From a virus, in the IMG/VR virus record IMGVR_UViG_3300022693_003591, positions 1 through 22,755 of that record: 22,755 nt of DNA; one strand, given 5' to 3'. Under the pieces are notes generated by a model. The model was given only the letters and a program-made list of their open reading frames with translations. It had not been told where the DNA came from and searched no databases. Of the stretch, positions 2,626 through 20,128 are shown piece by piece (positions within the stretch are counted from its first letter, which is position 1; the number at the start of each line of letters is the position of its first letter). A program made the translations under genes and the position numbers.

Positions 2626-2784
2626 ATGAATGCTCGCCAAAGGTTCAAAAAAACCTTAGATAATGAGACCTATAAGGCCAAAGTTGAGAGTCTCAAGGCA
2701 AAAACCGTCGAATTATTCGTGATGGGTCTTATTATTATGGTCATTGTCGTGATGTTTGGTCGATTTTGGTTCGGCACGTGGTAA
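2626..2784 (+). CDS. Small C-tail-anchored membrane protein (52 aa)
   Basis: This is the first gene behind promoter P1. ATG 2626 gives a Lys/Arg-rich soluble head of about 30 residues, then a hydrophobic helix at about 31-44 and an aromatic end (FGRFWFGTW). A positive head before one helix predicts that the head stays in the cytoplasm. The leader is short (about 16 nt) with AGG in ACAGGTAAAT as a weak SD. Function is unknown; small phage membrane proteins include holins and superinfection factors, but no motif supports either. Confidence 0.65.
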   Translation: MNARQRFKKTLDNETYKAKVESLKAKTVELFVMGLIIMVIVVMFGRFWFGTW

Positions 2785-2834
2785 ATCTTCAATAAACGCC
2801 CCAACTCTCCTCATTCTCCTCGAAGTACGGTCTT

Positions 2835-3167
2835 GTGAAGTCTAATCCTCAAAAAATCTCCAATATCAACCCTCGTGACACCATTATGCGGATTGAATGG
2901 GTCGATGCCCAGACAACCGATGAATGGAACCCCTGGACGGCGGGAAAATTCCGCCAACTCCCTCACTGTTTTTCAGTCGGCTTTTTGACCGACGGTCCTG
3001 AGGGGTGTATGTCATTAACTGCGTTAATTGATATCAAAAACGAAATTGAAGCTCAGGTGATCGACATTCCGATCGGCTGGATTAAAGCCGTTCATAAACT
3101 CAATGTCGGAGCGAAAATCGTACCAAAATCACCAACTACATTGGCCAAGCCGAGAAAGACGAAATAA
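2835..3167 (+). CDS. Conserved small phage protein, RIEWVDA type
   Basis: The frame is open from GTG 2835 (110 aa) with an internal ATG at 2886 (93 aa). The region beginning RIEWVDA, then D-E-W, S-V-G-F-L and a final I-D-I-P segment has the order seen in a widespread small phage protein that starts near a (R/V)xWxDA motif and ends with an IPxxx(I/V) strand. On that comparison the start at 2886 is plausible and the first 17 residues may not be translated. It is probably a small beta-rich cytoplasmic protein. Its stop overlaps the next start (TAATG). Biochemical role is unknown. Confidence 0.7.
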   Translation: MKSNPQKISNINPRDTIMRIEWVDAQTTDEWNPWTAGKFRQLPHCFSVGFLTDGPEGCMSLTALIDIKNEIEAQVIDIPIGWIKAVHKLNVGAKIVPKSPTTLAKPRKTK

Positions 3168-3343
3168 TGCCGCCATTTAAGCCTAAGAAACACACAACTG
3201 ATCATTTTCGTGACCAAGCCGCAGCCATAAGAGAGAAACTCGATAAAAAGAAGTTTATTCAAAAACATAAGAAACAGGTTCCGGTCGCACCAGGTGTATC
3301 GAGAAGGGCGCGTGGTCCTCACCGTAAATCAAGCGCGATATAA
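3167..3343 (+). CDS. Small basic protein (58 aa)
   Basis: ATG 3167 overlaps the previous TAA. About a third of the residues are Lys, Arg or His, with clusters KPKKH, KLDKKK, KHKK and a final RRARGPHRK stretch. The charge suggests nucleic-acid binding, or a disordered structural peptide. It is one of four tiny basic proteins scattered through the packaging and head region (also 6622, 12738 and 13085). No fold or family is recognised. Confidence 0.6.
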   Translation: MPPFKPKKHTTDHFRDQAAAIREKLDKKKFIQKHKKQVPVAPGVSRRARGPHRKSSAI

Positions 3344-3385
3344 CACCATCTCTCACACACCGAAACCGAAGTCGAAAACGAAAAA

Positions 3386-5179
3386 ATGACTGACACCCCG
3401 ACCACTTCCCCCATTAACACCGATATCTTCATGAAGAACGTCAAAGCGTTGACCAAAGGCCAACCGGACGTGGCCCGGCTTATTCCGGCCAATATTACCG
3501 TGGATGCCCACAATGAGCCCGCTCTCTCCCAGATTGAACTCGAAAAGATGCTCGATATGTGCAATCCGGCCGCTGGAGGGTCCATTTGCGTCCTGGGGAT
3601 TCGCGACGGTCTGTTGTTGAAGGCCCTGGCTCTCCAGGCCAAGCCCGGACTACGTATCATGGTCTACGAGCAAGATTTTAATAAATTTCTGGCCCTCCTG
3701 GTCGCGATCGACCTCTCCGAAGTGTTTCTCAACTCCCAGTTCTATTTCGTGGTGGAAGGCTCAGGCAACCTCCTGATGCTTTGTGAACAATCGCTATTGA
3801 GAACGAATCTCACTTTCAGAGTCATTCGACAGTTTTTACACCTTCCTGAGGACAAAAAAACGATCTACCAGGACTTTCTGGATACCGATATTTTGGACTT
3901 TGCCGTCCAACAGCCCGTTCGTATGGCCACACTCGATAAAATGGGTCCGAAGTTTGTCCACAATGTGCTGTCGCATATTACCCAACTCTCACGGGCACGG
4001 CCGTTTGGGGATCTGAAGGATCTCGGAGTGGGACGTCCCGTCTTTGTGATCGGCTGTGGACCGAGTCTCGACGATAATCGAGCCTTGCTTGAGAAGTGGC
4101 ACGGTCGGGCCGTATTCATTGCCGCCGATAGTGCGCTTCGCACATTGCAAGATTGGGGGATCAATCCCGAGTTCGTGACTTCGGTGGATCCCCAGGAGGC
4201 GACGGCCAAAAAGATTGTCGGTCTAAAGACCAAAGGGATTGGTTTGGTCTATCATCCGTGTGCCAGTTCGTTGGTAGAAGATTGGAACGGTCCGACCTTC
4301 TCGATGGATATTGGGATGTCCACGTATCTCTTCTTCCAGGACGGCTTGTGGTCCTCAAAAGGATTGGGTATGGATTGGCTCTCACACTGTCAAGTTCATA
4401 TGGCCGCCAACATTGCGGCTTTGCTGGGCGGACGTCCCACGATTATGGTGGGGATGGATCTGGCCCTTCCCTGTGGGAAGACCCACGCAGCCCTGGGCTA
4501 TCTGACCGAGGCCGGCGAAGTTCAGTATCGAAAAGATTCGAATTTCATCACCGCTACCAATGCACGAGGTCACGATGTGGCCACCACGGCACTCTTTATG
4601 TCCTATAAAAAGATGTGGGAGACGCGGTTTCGCGATCGGCTGCCCGAAGGGGGAGTTTTTAATGTCGTGAATCAAGGCTTGGCCCTGGCGGGATCAACCA
4701 CGATTTTGTTGGAAGAGACTGACAAGACCTTTGCCCACGTGACCTCGGTCGACACCCCCTTTGTCCTCCCCACTGCGAAAAATACACCGATTGATCAGGA
4801 CTTGTTAAAGAGTCGGTTTACCGAGTTTTTACTGGAGACCACACGAATCCATGACCTCGCCTTGGCGCTGAAAAAAACGACTGATCCCTTTCTTCAAACG
4901 GAGATTCCACCGGACAGAGTCCGTCTTTCGGCGACCGCCGAGCGGTTGGTTTACGATTTGTCCCATCCGTCGCTGATCACCGACGCGCTGATTACCAGTG
5001 AGATTGCCTTTGCACGATCGGCCTTTGGCGATATGAGTACAGCCCTGGATCGGGTGGAAAACCCGATTGAACGATTACGAGGTCAGGCGGTACGGGCCAA
5101 CACCTATGCGGAGATTTTGATTCGACGATGTGAGGAGTATCGCGAGATTGTAGAATTCCAACTGGAGGTAACGACGTGA
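3386..5179 (+). CDS. DUF115 / MptE-like protein (motility-accessory-factor family)
   Basis: This is a 597-residue protein with the signature of the DUF115 (6-hydroxymethylpterin diphosphokinase MptE-like) family. VFVIGCGPSLDD (219-230) is a Rossmann-like nucleotide-binding loop, followed by FIAADSALRTL (244-254) and GINPEFVTSVDPQE (258-271). LVYHP (287-291) and PTIMVGMDLAL (351-361) follow. The N-terminal part has a second Rossmann-like stretch (SICVLGIRDGLLLKAL, then IMVYEQD, 66-96), as in motility accessory factors, which are tied to transfer of nonulosonic acids to flagellin. Here the gene lies in a phage genome 2.5 kb before the terminase, so the acceptor may be a virion protein or host surface component. 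That is inference. ATG 3386 is the first start after an in-frame stop; its SD is weak. Confidence 0.85.
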   Translation: MTDTPTTSPINTDIFMKNVKALTKGQPDVARLIPANITVDAHNEPALSQIELEKMLDMCNPAAGGSICVLGIRDGLLLKALALQAKPGLRIMVYEQDFNKFLALLVAIDLSEVFLNSQFYFVVEGSGNLLMLCEQSLLRTNLTFRVIRQFLHLPEDKKTIYQDFLDTDILDFAVQQPVRMATLDKMGPKFVHNVLSHITQLSRARPFGDLKDLGVGRPVFVIGCGPSLDDNRALLEKWHGRAVFIAADSALRTLQDWGINPEFVTSVDPQEATAKKIVGLKTKGIGLVYHPCASSLVEDWNGPTFSMDIGMSTYLFFQDGLWSSKGLGMDWLSHCQVHMAANIAALLGGRPTIMVGMDLALPCGKTHAALGYLTEAGEVQYRKDSNFITATNARGHDVATTALFMSYKKMWETRFRDRLPEGGVFNVVNQGLALAGSTTILLEETDKTFAHVTSVDTPFVLPTAKNTPIDQDLLKSRFTEFLLETTRIHDLALALKKTTDPFLQTEIPPDRVRLSATAERLVYDLSHPSLITDALITSEIAFARSAFGDMSTALDRVENPIERLRGQAVRANTYAEILIRRCEEYREIVEFQLEVTT

Positions 5180-5466
5180 AACCACACCTGGGGCTCGAAC
5201 CCTACTTTTCTGAACATCATTTAGATGACTATACCGTCGGCATGATTCAAGATGCGAAGACGTCCAAAACTTATCGCTCACACTGTGGTGAATATCTGGT
5301 GTATCGACAGGACAACCCGATCCCGATGATCTATGTCGCGCGAATTTTGGCGATGGTTCAACCCGATGAAGACACATGGAGTACGGAATATCGTACTCGT
5401 GTGAAGGATACAGAACGGAGAAAATCTTCACATTTCTTGTGGCAAAAACATGTGGAGGCCCAATAA
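5176..5466 (+). CDS. Hypothetical protein (96 aa)
   Basis: GTG 5176 overlaps the TGA of the DUF115 gene (GTGA) and has a GGAGG SD, so the two are probably translated together. The product is a soluble, charged protein with many Tyr and His residues and no membrane segment or recognisable domain. The tight coupling suggests a partner role for DUF115, but the sequence does not show one. Its stop overlaps the next start (TAATG). Confidence 0.7.
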   Translation: MKPHLGLEPYFSEHHLDDYTVGMIQDAKTSKTYRSHCGEYLVYRQDNPIPMIYVARILAMVQPDEDTWSTEYRTRVKDTERRKSSHFLWQKHVEAQ

Positions 5467-5627
5467 TGGGGGTGTTTACGCCAATCTTCCGGGAAGAAGT
5501 AATCATAGAATTAACGAAACTCTATTTGGCACGAACCGGGGATCTGCATAAAGAATCCAATACTACGCTTGAGGACTGGTTAAACGAAATGTATCCGAAT
5601 GACGGAGGATACCAGATTGTGGAATGA
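5466..5627 (+). CDS. Small acidic protein (53 aa)
   Basis: ATG 5466 overlaps the previous TAA and has GGAGG about 8 nt upstream. A longer GTG start in the same frame would lie inside the previous gene and is rejected. The product is mostly helical by composition (EEVIIELTKLYLAR, then TLEDWLNEMYP) and acidic. Its stop overlaps the next start (ATGA). No family is recognised. Confidence 0.65.
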   Translation: MGVFTPIFREEVIIELTKLYLARTGDLHKESNTTLEDWLNEMYPNDGGYQIVE

Positions 5628-5998
5628 GCCGGACGAAACGCCTGAAACTCAAGACAACGTGGTCCAAGGGGATCTTGAACCGAACCCGGAAGCAAGTCCT
5701 GACTCTCGCGGAAGTGAGCTTCATCACTGGGAAGACGCCGACCACCGTGAAGGCGGGTCTGAAAAAACTGGGCGTTCCGATGAAGAAGTATCGCATGCCC
5801 ACAGGGTTCGAGATCTATCATATCCCCGCGGACGGCGTCATACGCTATCTGATGCAAACGCTCCAGTACAATCTGTCTCACATTTCACAGAGTCTGCGAA
5901 CCCCGATCTCGTTCAACAAGCCCCCGCGTTCCCTATTCATCGACTCGACGAAGTCAACTACGAAAAAGCCCTTGCCGCCGGAGCACCCGTCGCCCTAG
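5624..5998 (+). CDS. Helix-turn-helix-like DNA-binding protein (124 aa)
   Basis: ATG 5624 overlaps the previous TGA. The N-terminus is very basic. Residues about 25-50 (VLTLAEVSFITGKTPTTVKA, then GLKKLGV) resemble a MerR/excisionase-type winged helix-turn-helix. A strand-like Y-R-M-P-x-G-F-E-I-Y-H-I segment then fits the wing. The last 35 residues are low-complexity (Ser, Thr, Lys, Pro). They overlap a second open frame that continues downstream, so the protein may really end by joining that frame through a -1 shift. It could be a transcription regulator or a small-terminase-like DNA-binding subunit; neither is proven. Confidence 0.6.
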   Translation: MSRTKRLKLKTTWSKGILNRTRKQVLTLAEVSFITGKTPTTVKAGLKKLGVPMKKYRMPTGFEIYHIPADGVIRYLMQTLQYNLSHISQSLRTPISFNKPPRSLFIDSTKSTTKKPLPPEHPSP

Positions 5999-6024
5999 CG
6001 GTCCTCTTTGAGGGGATTAACCGC

Positions 6025-6321
6025 ATGGGGGCCTATCAGTACCATTTTGAAAGTGTGAGTGCGATTGAGTCGGCGGTCGTGGCCGACGTTAATAGGATGA
6101 AGATGGCCGAACGCATTATGCACTATCAAGCGGTCAACAAACAGGGCAAAGAGCCCATGATGAACTGGCAGGAAGATATTCCTGATTATAATAAATATTC
6201 CCCAGCGGTCCGAGCCGCCTTTGAGAAGAAAATGGCCGAAGCAGAAGCCGAACTTGATCGACTGGCCGATGCCGAAGTCCTGGAACACTACGATGACGAA
6301 AGCCCAACGGAACCAAATTAA
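6025..6321 (+). CDS. Hypothetical protein, C-terminal coiled-coil-like (start uncertain)
   Basis: The frame is open from ATG 5599 to TAA 6321, but its first 370 nt overlap the helix-turn-helix gene in another frame. ATG 6025 has GAGGGG at 9 nt and gives 98 residues. The segment just before it (NYEKALAAGAPVALAVLFEG) also looks like genuine protein, so the true N-terminus may be further upstream or supplied by a -1 frameshift from the previous gene. The C-terminal half is helical and acidic (EKKMAEAEAELDRL). No family is recognised. Confidence 0.55.
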   Translation: MGAYQYHFESVSAIESAVVADVNRMKMAERIMHYQAVNKQGKEPMMNWQEDIPDYNKYSPAVRAAFEKKMAEAEAELDRLADAEVLEHYDDESPTEPN

Positions 6322-7648: not shown

Positions 7649-9415
7649 ATGTCTTCCCAAAACACCGAACGCCTCTACTGGTCGCACGTCAAACATCGAC
7701 TCCAAACAGGGGTCGACAGCTTTGAATTCGCCTGCAACAAATTCTTTCGCGTACAAGCCAAAGAATCCTTTGGTATGCCGCTGTTTAAGTTCAACAACTG
7801 TCAGCGGATCGCCGTCGAGTTCATGAAGAACTTCCATAAAGAACACGGGAATATTCGGGTGATTATCGGCAAAGCCCGACAGCTCGGGATGAGCACACTC
7901 CTGACCTCTGTGTTGGCGCAACCGACGTTTTTTCGTCAAGATCGTAACTCGTTATTGATTACCCACGATGAGGATAGCTCGAAAGCGATGCTCGGGAAGC
8001 ATAAGATTATCTATGACAATCTTCCGAAAGTCCTGCAACCTCAACGCGGCGTCGATACAACGACTCTTATGTCGTTTCCTAAAATTCGTACTCAGATCAT
8101 GGCTGGCCATGCTCGGAATTTGAACGTGGGGGCGTCCAGCACCCAACATCTCGTCCATCTCTCCGAGGTGGCACGCTACCCGGACGCCTCCACCGTCCAA
8201 TCCTCCCTCTTTCCGTCGATCTCGACCGCCAAGAGTAAGTACTTCGGCGACAGCTCAGTTATCGTCATGGAATCCACCTCCTTCCGCGGCGGTGAATGGT
8301 TCAAAGCTTTTGGCGAGGAGGCTCGTCTAGGCCGTAACGGTTTCGGGTTCCTGTTCATCCCGTGGTTTAAGCACGAACTTTACTATAAGACCCCTCCTAA
8401 GGGCTTTGCACCCCTCCCTGAGGAACAGGCGTGGTTGAAAAAGTACGCCGATGAGGGTCTCAGCTGGGGGAATCTGTACTGGCGGCGCCAGAAGAAGTCT
8501 GAATATCAACTCTCACAACTACGAGGAACAGGAGTCGACAATGGCGGTCTCTTCGAACAAGAATACCCTTTCAGTTGGGAAGACAGCTGGATATTGCCAG
8601 GTGGTTCCTCCCGAGTCTTTACCGATTCAGATATCAAAGGCATCTATGAGCCGAAGACTGGCGTACCACATTGGCCGACTCCTGAAGGATTGGTCAGGGA
8701 TATCGGAGCCTCCCTTGATATCTACAGCGAAGCCGTTGACGATCGTCACTACGACATCGGCATCGACCCTTCAGGAGGACGAACAGAACACAGTGATTTC
8801 ACCGCTATTTCTGTCGTCGATCGTCAAACCCTCGAGCAAGTCGCGGAAGCCCGCCACCACTTCGATCCGGCGTCCCAAGAATTCCTCGAGTTCGTCTACT
8901 GGCTCGGCAAAATCTACAACAACGCGCAACTCATCATCGATAGCACGGGAGGATGGGGTCAGGCGCTCACGACGTTCCTCGTAAGTAAAAATTACCCCAA
9001 TATCTATCAGAGGAGACGACTGGATGACAGTAAAGAACGTATCTCAGCGACTATGGGATTTGTATTTACGAATCGTTCCAAACGAGATCTTATTAGCCAA
9101 GCTGTGGTCTTTGCCAATCACGGAGAACCTAAAATACACAGCGAACAACTCTATAAAGAAATCTCTGTCTATCTTCAATTCGGTGAGGATGAATATGGAG
9201 CCGCTCCGGGTTACCATGACGACCTCGTCACCGCCTGGATGCTGGCCCTCCTTGGAGCCAGCGGAGAACGCGTCATCCACGACAAACCCCTCGAAATGAA
9301 CGAATTCCAACCCCCTGACGTCGACAAAGCGTACTACCACGATCCTATCAAGTTACTTCACCTCGATCACACCAATACCAGCCACAAACGTCCGCAGTTC
9401 GTCGTTACCCCGTAG
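7649..9415 (+). CDS. terL: Terminase large subunit (TerL)
   Basis: This is the ATP-driven DNA-packaging motor and headful/site nuclease of tailed phages. The 588 residues are within the usual range. The N-terminal ATPase shows an adenine-side Q (52), a Walker A variant IGKARQLGMSTL (73-84), a Walker B strand with the catalytic acid in LVHLSEVARY (168-177) and a coupling segment VIVMESTS (204-211). The RNase-H-like nuclease shows GIDPSGG (371-377) with the first Asp, AQLIIDSTGGWG (426-437) with the second, and YHDDLVTAW (522-530) with the last pair. It sits before the portal gene, as is usual, separated by one gene. No clear small terminase was found; the zinc-ribbon or helix-turn-helix genes upstream are candidates. 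Confidence 0.95.
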   Translation: MSSQNTERLYWSHVKHRLQTGVDSFEFACNKFFRVQAKESFGMPLFKFNNCQRIAVEFMKNFHKEHGNIRVIIGKARQLGMSTLLTSVLAQPTFFRQDRNSLLITHDEDSSKAMLGKHKIIYDNLPKVLQPQRGVDTTTLMSFPKIRTQIMAGHARNLNVGASSTQHLVHLSEVARYPDASTVQSSLFPSISTAKSKYFGDSSVIVMESTSFRGGEWFKAFGEEARLGRNGFGFLFIPWFKHELYYKTPPKGFAPLPEEQAWLKKYADEGLSWGNLYWRRQKKSEYQLSQLRGTGVDNGGLFEQEYPFSWEDSWILPGGSSRVFTDSDIKGIYEPKTGVPHWPTPEGLVRDIGASLDIYSEAVDDRHYDIGIDPSGGRTEHSDFTAISVVDRQTLEQVAEARHHFDPASQEFLEFVYWLGKIYNNAQLIIDSTGGWGQALTTFLVSKNYPNIYQRRRLDDSKERISATMGFVFTNRSKRDLISQAVVFANHGEPKIHSEQLYKEISVYLQFGEDEYGAAPGYHDDLVTAWMLALLGASGERVIHDKPLEMNEFQPPDVDKAYYHDPIKLLHLDHTNTSHKRPQFVVTP

Positions 9416-10094: not shown

Positions 10095-11828
10095 ATGCCA
10101 AAATTAGGACCAAAAACACATATCAACACTCAGGGAGGCGCTGATGAAGCCAACCTCCTCTCTCAACTGAATAGTTATTGGAAAGAAGGGAAACGCGCGC
10201 GTGAAGTCCATCACACCGACGCGATGGTGAAAGAGTCCGTGGCCCTGTTTCGAGGAGAAGTCCATCTCTCCGACGAAGACGAAGAACTCTTCTTTAAGGC
10301 CAATATCATCCAGGCCTTCCTAGGTCGCCAGGTCAGTCAATTGACCGACAACCGTCCGATTTTCCGTCATGAACCCACTCGCTGGGAGATGGAACGTCCC
10401 GCCAAAATCATCAATCAGGTGTTTACCGCGCTCTGGGACGAAGCGACGATGCAGCGCCAACTCTATAAGATGGTCCATAATGCCGGGATCAAGGCCTCGG
10501 CCGGCCTGAAGGTCAGTTGGGATCCCATGAAGGATGATCTCTCCGTGGAACTGATTATGCCCGATCAAATTGCCGTCCATCCCGGCGTCCGAGAGGCTGC
10601 CCGATTCGATGATGCGGAATACATCGTGGTGCGACGACCGGTTCCTCTGGATCTGATTGCCGCCCAATTCGGTGTTCGCGGAGGATTCGTGAAATCCAAC
10701 GTCAAATTAACCGGTAACCAGTCCGCAGGGAGTGGATCGGTGATTGACGGTGCCGATGAGGCGTTTAATCTCGGTGCCCATAAAAAATTGAGTACCGGCG
10801 ATACCATCCCTCATGCCTGGATCTACGAAGCCTGGGTCCAGGATCGTCAAATGACGATGGATCAAAAAACCCGTCTCTTTCCGGGTCGACGACGTGTGGT
10901 CTTCGCCGAGGATATCATCCTCTGGGACGGTCCCACTCCCAACTGGCATGGATTGCCAGATATCGAATGGTTCGACTGGACGGTCGATCCCGACCATCTA
11001 TGGGGGATTTCTGAACCTCAAAACTTGAAACATATGCAATTGGCCTTCAACGACATCATGAATGGCACGGTGGCGAATGCCATCGATATCAATACCACCA
11101 CTGTCTCTGGTGAAGCGGAGGCGCTCGAATCGGCTGAATGGCTCAAACTCACCAATACTCCGCGTATGCGGGTCGTGAAACACGCCAAAAATAAAACTCT
11201 GACGGTTATCACCCCACCGCCCTATGGCGCCAGCCAGGTGGCGATGTCGCGTTTCATCTTCCAAATGATGCAGCTCATGACGGGGGTCACGGATGTGACA
11301 CTGGGTGAAAGCCCAGGATCGCTCCAAAGTGGGATTGCGATCGAAGGACTCCAGGAGTCCGCCAATCTCATGACTCGAGATCGACAGAGTCGCTTAGAAG
11401 ACTTTATGAAGCGCATCGGCCATAAGATTACCACCCTGATTCTCCAACACATGGATGCCGATCGTATTTTTGCGGTGACCGGCCCAGTGGCCGAGGCCAC
11501 CCCCTACTTGGCACTTCGCCAAACCTTCTTTACCGATACGGAGGATGCCACAAAACAGATTAGTCCTGAACGACGAAAAGAACGCATTCGCTTCACCAAA
11601 TTCAACATTGTACCCGGGTCATCTGCCCCTGGTGCGAAACAACGCCGTGCTGAACTTATGTTCAAGATGCTCAAAACTGGTGCAGCCAGCCGTCAAGATG
11701 TACTTGAAGCGGCCGATTATACGCCCGAAATGGCCAAAAAGCAGATCGAACGCGCCACAGAGGACTTTGGAAAGAATCCCCTGATGCAGGCTGAGGCCAA
11801 TAAGGGTAAGGCCTCGAAGGAGGAATAA
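10095..11828 (+). CDS. Portal protein
   Basis: This is the dodecameric head-vertex ring through which DNA is packaged and ejected. The 577-residue length fits podovirus and SU10-like portals. Supporting segments are QLTDNRPIFRHEP (82-94), a stem region around 300-330 (GISEPQNLKHMQLAFND) and TGVTDVTLGESPGSLQSGIA (396-415) followed by I-E-G-L-Q-E-S. That Gly/Ser-rich turn followed by a long helix is characteristic of phage portals. It follows TerL and precedes scaffold and capsid genes in the standard order. The C-terminal 60 residues are charged helix ending in Lys/Glu, probably the crown region. Confidence 0.92.
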   Translation: MPKLGPKTHINTQGGADEANLLSQLNSYWKEGKRAREVHHTDAMVKESVALFRGEVHLSDEDEELFFKANIIQAFLGRQVSQLTDNRPIFRHEPTRWEMERPAKIINQVFTALWDEATMQRQLYKMVHNAGIKASAGLKVSWDPMKDDLSVELIMPDQIAVHPGVREAARFDDAEYIVVRRPVPLDLIAAQFGVRGGFVKSNVKLTGNQSAGSGSVIDGADEAFNLGAHKKLSTGDTIPHAWIYEAWVQDRQMTMDQKTRLFPGRRRVVFAEDIILWDGPTPNWHGLPDIEWFDWTVDPDHLWGISEPQNLKHMQLAFNDIMNGTVANAIDINTTTVSGEAEALESAEWLKLTNTPRMRVVKHAKNKTLTVITPPPYGASQVAMSRFIFQMMQLMTGVTDVTLGESPGSLQSGIAIEGLQESANLMTRDRQSRLEDFMKRIGHKITTLILQHMDADRIFAVTGPVAEATPYLALRQTFFTDTEDATKQISPERRKERIRFTKFNIVPGSSAPGAKQRRAELMFKMLKTGAASRQDVLEAADYTPEMAKKQIERATEDFGKNPLMQAEANKGKASKEE

Positions 11829-14254: not shown

Positions 14255-15208
14255 ATGGCTGTCCCTACAAAGACTACAACCCTCAATAACTTTGCGACGT
14301 CCACCGCCGAACATCGACGGAAAGATGTGGTCGACAATTTTTTCGGTTCAGCCCCCATGTGGGCGATTATGCGTCAGAAAAACAACATTGTGTTGACTGG
14401 CGGAACCGAGATTCACGAAAACTTCATCTATAGTAATTTCGCCGCCGGATCCTATGGACGCGGTACGACCTTCGATTCCAGTACCAAAGAATTCTCCACC
14501 AAAATGATTTTTGATTGGAAATTCTGTCACTCTCCGGTAAACATTGACGTCATTGATGCCGAACTGAATGAATCCTCGGAACGAGTGTTCAATTTGGTGG
14601 AAGCCGCAATGGAAGTCGGTGAACTCTCACTGATCGATGATCTCTCCACTCAGCTCTATGGTGATGGATCCGGCAACGGGTCTCTCGACATTAACGGACT
14701 GGAAGATGGTATTTCCCAATCGGGTAGTTACGGCGGGATTACCCGCACGACCACTGCCAAGACCCCTGGTCTGGCCATTCGCTCTGCGCAGGATGACACC
14801 ACGGGTGGCGCCCTGTCTCTCTCTGGGATGCAAGTCATCCACGGGAACTGTGTGGTCGGCAAAGAAGCCCCTGATATGATCTCCACGACTCAGACCCTGT
14901 GGAACAAGATCTGGGAACGCTCACAGCCTTCTGAGAGAAATAATTCCGAAACCATGCGTGATATTGGATTCCGAGCTGTCGCCTTGAATGCCGCGGATGT
15001 CGTGGTGGATAGCCACAATCCTTCAGGCGTCCAGTATTACATCAATACCAACTGGTGGAACCTCTACTCCCACCGCAACTGGAGTTTCGTCTTCCGTGGA
15101 TTCATGGAACCCGCCACTCAGCAAAAGAAAATTGGACAGCTGATCTGGTGGGGCAACGCGATTTGTCGTGCGCCTCGATTCCAAGGAAAGCAAGCCTCCG
15201 TCACGTAA
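14255..15208 (+). CDS. Major capsid protein
   Basis: This is probably an HK97-fold shell protein. ATG 14255 lies 10 nt after AAAGGA; an ATG at 14248 in another frame is ignored. The 317-residue length fits. The N-terminal FATSTAEHRRKDVVDNFFGSAPMWAIM segment and the EI-H-E-N-F-IYSN stretch match capsid proteins of podovirus-like phages. So does the Trp-rich C-terminal region (YYINTNWWNLYSHRNWSFV, then GQLIWWGNAICRAPRFQG). A Gly/Asn-rich loop lies at about 138-165. The gene follows the scaffold and is followed by decoration-like proteins. Expression is probably high (P2 plus good SD). Confidence 0.85.
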   Translation: MAVPTKTTTLNNFATSTAEHRRKDVVDNFFGSAPMWAIMRQKNNIVLTGGTEIHENFIYSNFAAGSYGRGTTFDSSTKEFSTKMIFDWKFCHSPVNIDVIDAELNESSERVFNLVEAAMEVGELSLIDDLSTQLYGDGSGNGSLDINGLEDGISQSGSYGGITRTTTAKTPGLAIRSAQDDTTGGALSLSGMQVIHGNCVVGKEAPDMISTTQTLWNKIWERSQPSERNNSETMRDIGFRAVALNAADVVVDSHNPSGVQYYINTNWWNLYSHRNWSFVFRGFMEPATQQKKIGQLIWWGNAICRAPRFQGKQASVT

Positions 15209-18266: not shown

Positions 18267-18992
18267 ATGGCGATTGATTCTACACTCCTCGGCTTCACAG
18301 AAGATAATGGCAGTCCTTCAACCATTGCCACGGCTTCCATTACCCCCACAAATACCCAGTTGATTTTCACGTGTGTCTGGAATGGCGATAATGATGGGGC
18401 AGGAACCGCCGATGAACCGACGGTAGCCGGATGCGGCGCGACCTGGGATGTGATCGCCTCAATCGAAGTGGATGCCGGATCGAGTGGGTGGCGTCGAGTC
18501 TCCGTTTTTCGAACCACAGGAACATCGTCAGCCGGTTCGGTGACCGCGACATTTGATGACGCACAAACCGGTGCCGCCATTGCGGTCATCGAGTGGAACA
18601 CGGATACGTCAACCGCAGGAACCAATGGGGCCGATGCCATTGTGCAATCAAACTCCAATACCGGGTTATCCGGTACCTCACATAACACCGGGCTCAATGA
18701 TTTTGCTGATGCCACCAACAATGCGGCTTTTCTCGCGGTCGTCACTAGTAGAAATACTGATCCAACGGCAGATGCCGACTTAGCCAATATTCATGTGGGA
18801 AATCATACCTCACAAAACACCGGGTGGATCGCGGCCTTTGGCGTCGGGGAGGATCTCACCCCAGGCTGTTCCTGGACCAGTACCGGGTTTCCCGCCGGTG
18901 TCTCGGTTGAGATTGCCGCCGCGGTTGCTGCTGCAGCTGGTGGACATGGTCACCTTCTCTCTGATCGTCGCAATACCTTGGTGTACGCCTAA
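18267..18992 (+). CDS. Putative virion beta-sandwich protein (241 aa)
   Basis: ATG 18267 lies two bases after the previous stop. The sequence GATWDVIASIEVDAGSSGWR, then S-V-F-R-T-T-G, then SVTATFDDAQTGAAIAVIEW has the order of a widespread phage structural domain. Its W and Gly-rich turns and its VIEW strand are characteristic. Further beta-rich repeats follow with Asn/Thr-rich loops. The Ala-rich C-terminal stretch (EIAAAVAAAAGGHGH) is flexible. It probably projects from the head or neck. The assignment is by pattern recall. Confidence 0.65.
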   Translation: MAIDSTLLGFTEDNGSPSTIATASITPTNTQLIFTCVWNGDNDGAGTADEPTVAGCGATWDVIASIEVDAGSSGWRRVSVFRTTGTSSAGSVTATFDDAQTGAAIAVIEWNTDTSTAGTNGADAIVQSNSNTGLSGTSHNTGLNDFADATNNAAFLAVVTSRNTDPTADADLANIHVGNHTSQNTGWIAAFGVGEDLTPGCSWTSTGFPAGVSVEIAAAVAAAAGGHGHLLSDRRNTLVYA

Positions 18993-19171: not shown

Positions 19172-20128
19172 GTGAGTGATAATCTCGGAGATCTCAGCGA
19201 AGATGCGGTTGTCAGCTTCATGTGGACCACAGTCAACGCCTCGGGTGCGCCAGCCTCGTTAGATGCCGACACTGGCACAATCTCAATTTATAGTCCTTCT
19301 CAAGGCGCTTCAACAACTCAATGGGGTTCTGGAGTCACACTGACGACGCCCTTTGATAGTACCGAAGGTCTTCACAAGGTGACAATTGATACGTCGAATG
19401 TCACAGATGGTGTCGCGTCCTTCACCATAGGAGAAGACTTCTCTGTCGTCGTCACGGTCGGTTCGGTTGCCGGACAAAGTATCGTCGGCTACGTCCTTCG
19501 AGAATTCTCCATCGAAAATCGATCTCTCGGACAACCGACAGGTGCCACAGTCGCTGCTGATATCATTGCCTTGAAAGCCGAGACGGTCAATATTTTGGCG
19601 GATACCGCCAGTATGATCATCGATACCAATGCCCTGTTTGCCAGCGCTGTCAATTCAACCATTGTTGCAGATACGGCCTCTACGGTGATTGACACCAACG
19701 CCCTCTTTGCCAGTGCGGTAAATTCGACGATCAAAACTACCACCGATAGCATTCTCGTGGATACGGCCAGTATCGTGATTGACACGAACGCACTCTTTGC
19801 GAGTGCCGTAAATTCGACCATCAATACCGGAGTGGTGTCGATCGTCGCGACGGTAGATGGTCTCAATGATATCTCCTCAGCCAATGTGGCCACGGAAATT
19901 AGTGATGCCCTGACCGTCGATACCCATACCGAACTCACGTCCGTTCCACCGGATGATACCACACTGATCAATATGCTGCTTTGGCAGTTCGCCCTGGCGC
20001 GAAATAAAGTCTCGCAGTCCAGTACCACGAAAACCCTCTCTGCGGACGACGGATCGGCCTCCATCGCCACCGCCACCATTTCAACTGACGGGGTCACCGT
20101 GACCCGAGCGGAGTATATCGATGGCTGA
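19172..20128 (+). CDS. Fibre- or neck-like structural protein with internal repeats (318 aa)
   Basis: GTG 19172 follows the previous stop. The N-terminal 115 residues are a beta domain. Its order, GVTLTTPFDSTEGLHKVTID, then a strand with S-V-V-V-T-V-G-S-V-A-G-Q-S, then REFSIENRSLG, occurs in many phage structural proteins. Residues 144-217 contain three copies of a 21-residue unit (DTASxxIDTNALFASAVNST, then I), which would form a repetitive helical or trimeric rod. The C-terminal 60 residues are beta-rich again. A bundle- or fibre-forming virion protein is likely. No enzymatic motif is present. Confidence 0.7.
   Translation: MSDNLGDLSEDAVVSFMWTTVNASGAPASLDADTGTISIYSPSQGASTTQWGSGVTLTTPFDSTEGLHKVTIDTSNVTDGVASFTIGEDFSVVVTVGSVAGQSIVGYVLREFSIENRSLGQPTGATVAADIIALKAETVNILADTASMIIDTNALFASAVNSTIVADTASTVIDTNALFASAVNSTIKTTTDSILVDTASIVIDTNALFASAVNSTINTGVVSIVATVDGLNDISSANVATEISDALTVDTHTELTSVPPDDTTLINMLLWQFALARNKVSQSSTTKTLSADDGSASIATATISTDGVTVTRAEYIDG
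19601..19822 (+). repeat. Three-copy in-frame repeat region
   Basis: Copies at 19601-19663, 19670-19732 and 19760-19822 encode a 21-residue unit that is identical at nearly all positions except two near residues 5-6 of each unit. Third codon positions have diverged, so the duplication is old and the protein sequence has been kept. Units are 69 and 90 nt apart. Confidence 0.85.

Follow-up and report, generated by a model that had tools for sequence, protein, structure and literature searches.

The 597-amino-acid protein encoded at positions 3386-5179 of the virus record analysed here is, by its predicted fold and its whole domain architecture, a highly divergent Maf and not a pterin enzyme, and its gene belongs to a recurrent phage arrangement that is newly described here. 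The protein is homologous to bacterial Mafs and shares their fold. In other phages the gene lies upstream of the terminase on the same strand, and genes for sugar synthesis occur with it. The window protein is probably a glycosyltransferase, its catalytic activity being judged from its relatives and fold. Going further, and with confidence somewhat better than even, we infer that it is a Maf-type protein O-glycosyltransferase which uses a CMP-nonulosonate or CMP-Kdo donor, is made late in infection and probably acts on a virion protein.

The window, meaning the whole stretch of DNA that was analysed, is a complete linear virus record of 22,755 bases and represents a fragment of a phage genome. 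Its relevant features are:

3386 to 5179, plus strand: Maf-like protein, 597 amino acids (PF01973, 9e-25; fold match to 5mu5; alignment to bacterial and phage Mafs)
5164 to 5169, plus strand: Shine-Dalgarno-like GGAGGT within the end of the Maf gene, read in the sequence
5176 to 5466, plus strand: 96-amino-acid open reading frame (ORF) whose GTG start overlaps the Maf stop (GTGA)
5599 to 6321, plus strand: 240-amino-acid ORF of unknown function between Maf and the terminase
7649 to 9415, plus strand: terminase large subunit, TerL (phrog_24361, 1.5e-8; 27% identity to TerL of Roseobacter phage CRP-7, 4e-35)
10095 to 11828, plus strand: P22-type portal protein (PF16510, 6e-22; phrog_156, 1e-26)
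14255 to 15208, plus strand: major capsid protein (phrog_9953, 1e-41), related to those of Myxococcus phages Mx8 and Mx9
18267 to 18992, plus strand: Ser/Thr-rich (23%) protein in the structural region, by composition; no family match
19172 to 20128, plus strand: Ser/Thr-rich (28%) protein with internal repeats in the structural region, by composition and repeats; no family match

The phage packaging region named in a preliminary description of this DNA is real: besides the terminase it encodes a portal of the P22 type and a major capsid protein like that of Mx8. That description had also set the Maf-like gene beside the terminase, which is right as to gene order but not as to adjacency, since TerL begins 2469 bases past the end of the Maf gene and small ORFs lie between them. 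The GTGA overlap at 5176 was found as described, with the GGAGGT at 5164-5169 ahead of the GTG, and translational coupling of Maf to the 96-amino-acid ORF is plausible from the sequence. This ORF (5176-5466) matched no family, and none of the related phages examined has a homolog, so any coupling would involve a gene that is not conserved among them.

The Maf reading frame starts with ATG and is unbroken across 597 codons, in agreement with the DUF115/Maf-like ORF first reported. Its sole Pfam match was PF01973 (MptE-like, formerly DUF115) at aa 193-361 (E 9e-25), and as its score of 87.8 bits compares with a curated cut-off of 34.6 bits, the match is far above chance. The NCBIfam PseD model for flagellin-modifying Maf (NF050051) matched aa 70-417 at E 1e-15 and 57.5 bits, which falls far short of the curated cut-off of 670 bits. 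The Pfam model of the Maf N-terminal domain (PF20157) did not match the window Maf, and it also misses the phage Mafs of contigs L027 and L032; a PHROGs search returned nothing for the Mafs of the window or L027. Bacterial Mafs from Paenibacillus, Clostridium and a deltaproteobacterium aligned across both domains, approximately aa 65-450 of the window protein. A profile of phage and bacterial Mafs found the solved Maf 5mu5 at 9e-25 spanning both domains, and matched archaeal MptE in the second domain only. The resulting layout is an N-terminal Rossmann-like domain at ~aa 39-175, an MptE-like/MAF domain at aa 193-361 that extends to ~450, and a C-terminus predicted to be helical. The earlier proposal of two Rossmann-like domains is thus upheld by the bacterial Maf alignment and the predicted fold, with the first domain preceding the MptE-like one. 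Recent import of the gene was considered on the basis of base composition and found no support, as its GC3 is 0.61 and that of the other genes measured 0.54-0.63.

The predicted model of the window Maf is of middling confidence (pLDDT 69.7, pTM 0.66) and weakest at the C-terminus. The solved Maf 5mu5 matched it at a Foldseek E of 2.3e-16 and aligned at Z 25.5 across 444 residues, covering model residues 10-581 or nearly the whole length. The N-terminal Maf domain is present in both comparisons, from ~aa 65 in the alignment to bacterial Mafs and from residue 10 in the fold match, and the C-terminal domain consists of predicted helices that align with 5mu5 to residue 581 at a pLDDT of ~40-60. 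The sialyltransferases CstII (Z 9.3) and ST8SiaIII (Z 8.9) matched the middle domain only. Loss of the nucleotide-sugar pocket in a predicted structure had been proposed as grounds for abandoning the glycosylation idea; in our fold-level comparison the fold is intact and no such loss was seen. If the Pfam name is followed, the protein would be a 6-hydroxymethyl-dihydropterin pyrophosphokinase of the MptE type, and the archaeal MptE/HPPK of Methanocaldococcus (8sd5) does share the fold of the middle domain (Z 14.3 across 200 residues). However, 8sd5 is a single-domain enzyme of 241 residues that acts in another pathway and has no Maf N-terminal domain, whereas the window protein, with 597 residues and that domain, does not have the architecture of a stand-alone pterin kinase of ~240 residues; relatives of the window Maf also adjoin nonulosonate genes. 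Because the Maf match runs end to end and the MptE match covers the middle domain only, we reject a pterin role, which appears extremely improbable, and the archaeal connection raised earlier was not borne out. The name MptE-like misleads on the function of this protein. Maf-type identity with glycosylation is instead the best reading, given a Maf- and sialyltransferase-like fold and phage relatives that travel with NeuB and CMP-sugar synthetase.

In order to find other phage Mafs, cultured and uncultured virus collections were searched. Among 50,697 cultured-phage records the window Maf had no match even at E 1, and the Maf of contig L029 had none at 1e-3. Single-sequence scans of the viral collection for close relatives (P0001, TerL and the major capsid protein) returned nothing or one distant TerL, and a first alignment scan returned no viral Maf. 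An alignment with short bacterial Mafs yielded nine Maf-bearing contigs in IMG/VR, and the GPSL motif, searched for as a DNA pattern, yielded 67 stretches, nearly all of them encoding DUF115 proteins by profile; when alignments of L029/L030 and of L027/L032 were used later, no further record came up. In the viral structure library BFVD, the window Maf was matched best by uncultured-phage proteins named MptE-like. Two of the weaker structural matches there (A0A5B8IGA8, A0A5B8IFN6) belong to one giant virus, Mimiviridae sp. ChoanoV1, and are a DUF115 protein and a glycosyltransferase of family 29 (sialyltransferase). In the literature searched, mostly openly accessible papers, neither a phage Maf nor a function for phage MptE-like proteins was described.

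Maf was located upstream of TerL on the same strand in 17 distinct virus records including the window, a count that is no unbiased frequency since these TerLs were found with seeds from Maf-adjacent terminases. The gap between the two genes ranged from -11 to 2553 bases (median 464), and in two contigs Maf overlaps the TerL start. Three unlike TerL types are represented: the window's type, which occurs with the window's portal type and a Maf in L030, L111, L120 and L121; a phrog_38 type in L029 and others; and a phrog_2 type in L027 and L032. The preliminary description would have been undermined by absence of the gene from all close phage relatives, and it is present in four other phages of the window's TerL and portal types; two more distant TerL relatives lack it. 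An independent phrog_2 profile placed TerL within a few kb of Maf in two records with identical Mafs (G224 and G233), in G233 only if the contig is circular. In five records with Mafs that carry TPR repeats the terminase was found at least 18 kb away, so the linkage is recurrent but not universal.

Genes for the synthesis of nonulosonic acids accompany many of these Mafs. Among the 37 Maf-bearing virus records, 27 had a NeuB match and 21 a match to CMP-sugar synthetase (cytidylyltransferase); several NeuB matches in the L029 group are weak and partial, and PseI and NeuB models agree where tested. One NeuB from the Maf phages, used as a query, matched only 3 of the 50,697 cultured-phage records. 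In the L029-type contigs the shared gene order is radical SAM, CMP synthetase, oxidoreductase, aminotransferase (PseC-like), acetyltransferase, PseB, Maf and TerL, with a NeuB-like gene also upstream of PseB-Maf-TerL. In L120, which has the window's TerL and portal types, genes for NeuB, UDP-GlcNAc 2-epimerase and a cytidylyltransferase lie upstream of Maf-TerL. The window record (22.8 kb) had no NeuB or CMP-synthetase match, and as it is a fragment, the donor may be made by the host or by genes off the contig.

The window Maf keeps 33 of 54 family-conserved positions and departs from the consensus at the other 21. Near-invariant positions that are kept include N18, G71, G75, E95, N193, GPSL at 225-228, P261 and D268, and further along G356, D358, H367, T400, E412, N426 and G431. 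The changes include Q357M, which falls in GQDL, and the TEGGA motif at the C-terminus; 5mu5 likewise lacks this Q and the TEGGA motif, so such changes alone do not show a loss of activity. In the phylogeny, phage Mafs fell mostly into two groups, one a clade of the TerL-linked Mafs of the L029 and L030 groups, which also holds a bacterial Maf from a sugar cluster, and the other the TPR-Mafs. The window Maf had no firm place. Its branch is very long, at 3.34 changes per column, and the AU test (p 0.17) did not reject a clade with the L030 group, though such a clade was not established either. Identities between the window phage and the L030 group were 23-30% for Maf, 24-25% for TerL and 23-26% for the portal; since TerL and portal are as distant as Maf, the divergence of Maf is not exceptional for this phage, and the similar distances fit, without proving, joint descent of the three genes. 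The bacterial member of the TerL-linked clade (L049/G061) had been suspected of being a prophage; it sits among sugar genes and gave no terminase match.

The same divergence could mean that the protein has kept the Maf fold and lost sugar transfer, and that it now binds a structural protein or assists in its assembly. The long branch, the 21 changed positions and the missing sugar synthesis genes would agree with this, as would the finding that Maf1 binds its protein substrate even without the sugar (PMC4065374). However, the intact frame of 597 codons, the fact that some of the changed positions also differ in the solved 5mu5 and the equal distance of TerL and portal from the L030 group make loss of activity improbable. 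Another alternative is that the site upstream of TerL is a mere cargo site, and that Maf is unconnected with virion formation. Other genes do occupy this place: the L030 group has a LarA-like gene there, L120 has genes for ribonucleotide reductase and a phosphoesterase, and the L029 group has radical SAM genes. The two distant TerL relatives without Maf fit the same idea. Against it, Maf recurs there across three TerL types, overlaps the TerL start in two contigs and, in the L029 group, adjoins sugar genes of one pathway, so that a chance lodger seems unlikely.

An alternative target of the enzyme is the surface of the host, where the phage Maf would add nonulosonic acids to flagellin or another surface protein, or change them, and other phages would no longer bind or motility would change during infection. 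O-antigen-converting prophages carry glycosyltransferases that alter the host surface, which speaks for such a role. The substrates of characterised Mafs are flagellins (PMC4065374, PMC11339370). The absence of a flagellin gene from all 37 Maf-bearing virus records can be read in either direction: any flagellin that serves as acceptor must then come from the host, as this alternative supposes, and together with the position of Maf ahead of TerL on the late strand it favours, without proof, the virion as the target. That position, shared by 17 records with unlike terminases, fits late expression, and late in infection a change of the host surface gains little. In addition, Maf1, which is required for pseudaminic acid on flagellin, is cytoplasmic, binds its protein substrate directly and glycosylates flagellin ahead of its export (PMC4065374), and flagella assembled earlier would therefore stay unchanged. 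We regard a host target as unlikely, if a little less so than the cargo site.

In the preferred reading of a virion-directed glycosyltransferase, the Maf would be produced together with the late phage proteins, a timing suggested by its position. With a CMP-activated nonulosonic acid (pseudaminic, legionaminic or sialic in type) or CMP-Kdo as donor, it would glycosylate a protein at Ser/Thr in the cytoplasm of the infected cell, and a phage protein so modified before or during assembly would give a sugar-decorated virion. The window phage might draw for this on the CMP-sugar pool of the host or on genes beyond the contig end. Among the characterised Mafs, CbMaf also accepts Neu5Ac and Kdo donors (PMC11339370). 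Because Maf shortly precedes the genes for the terminase and structural proteins on the same strand, and does so in unlike phages, a structural protein is the likeliest acceptor, a proposal to which we give an even chance. The Ser/Thr-rich proteins at 18267-18992 and 19172-20128 are speculative candidates, as many phage structural proteins have a composition of this kind. A broader version of this reading, which we put forward tentatively, is that a widespread and so far unreported group of uncultured phages makes sialic-acid-type sugars and that their terminase-linked Maf coats virion proteins with them at assembly. The coat would then resemble a bacterial surface, and the window phage, no less tentatively, would obtain its donor from the host or from off-contig genes.

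Bacterial Mafs (Magnetospirillum 5mu5, Aeromonas Maf1, Clostridium botulinum CbMaf and Campylobacter PseD) resemble the window Maf in whole-length fold, in the order of the two domains and in the glycine-rich, GPSL and D/E/H/N positions, and relatives lie in nonulosonate gene clusters. In contrast to them, the window Maf is phage-borne, very divergent in sequence and encoded upstream of a terminase, in a record with neither a flagellin gene nor sugar synthesis genes. The MptE-like proteins of uncultured Caudovirales (UniProt/BFVD) are likewise phage-borne DUF115 proteins, annotated by domain name only and given no role in the literature searched. A precedent for virion glycosylation is provided by the cluster F1 mycobacteriophages Che8 and Rita, whose phage-encoded glycosyltransferases are linked with virion-protein sugars in the account given by PMC11256854, citing Freeman et al. 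2023. There the evidence is experimental, whereas for the window phage we infer glycosylation, and since the window Maf had no cultured-phage match, the enzymes differ.

Mafs are known as flagellin-modifying bacterial enzymes, and the present analysis adds Maf biology in a phage setting. Taken by itself, the window Maf would be of modest interest; its place in a recurrent arrangement raises that interest. If the proposal is correct, nonulosonate synthesis, Maf and terminase form a recurring phage module which, having no flagellin, applies the same chemistry to another protein. Many bacteria display nonulosonic acids among their surface sugars, and animals do so in the form of sialic acids; a virion that bears them could therefore differ in adsorption, aggregation or recognition. 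As the module consists of defined genes with predicted products, the prevalence of virion glycosylation among phages is directly testable.

Several other features of these genomes were observed. In five related phages (L030, 342-1397; L120, 8423-9484; L121, 14832-15686; L111, 1-732; L112, 1846-2880), the gene directly upstream of Maf encodes a relative of the N-terminal domain of LarA, a nickel-dependent lactate/2-hydroxyacid racemase; in L030 one small ORF separates the two genes. Upstream of Maf-TerL in L120, the immediate neighbour of NeuB is the gene for a ribonucleotide reductase large subunit (2697-4508). The L032 record (G206) has a second DUF115-domain ORF (461 aa) at 4368-4874 on the minus strand, besides its TerL-linked Maf. 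The second group of phage Mafs (L024, L025, L031 and others) carries C-terminal TPR repeats and lies within nonulosonate cassettes, and the L025 member is near baseplate genes. In the window, the small ORFs at 947-1471 and 2215-2433, close to the left end, have products related to each other (phmmer 3e-8) and appear to be duplicates, and a sigma-70-type promoter-like site at 2575-2603 (TTGACA-17-TATAGT), identified by consensus match only (11 of 12 positions), lies ~0.8 kb upstream of Maf. The protein encoded at 19172-20128 contains three near-repeats of DTASxVIDTNALFASAVNSTI.
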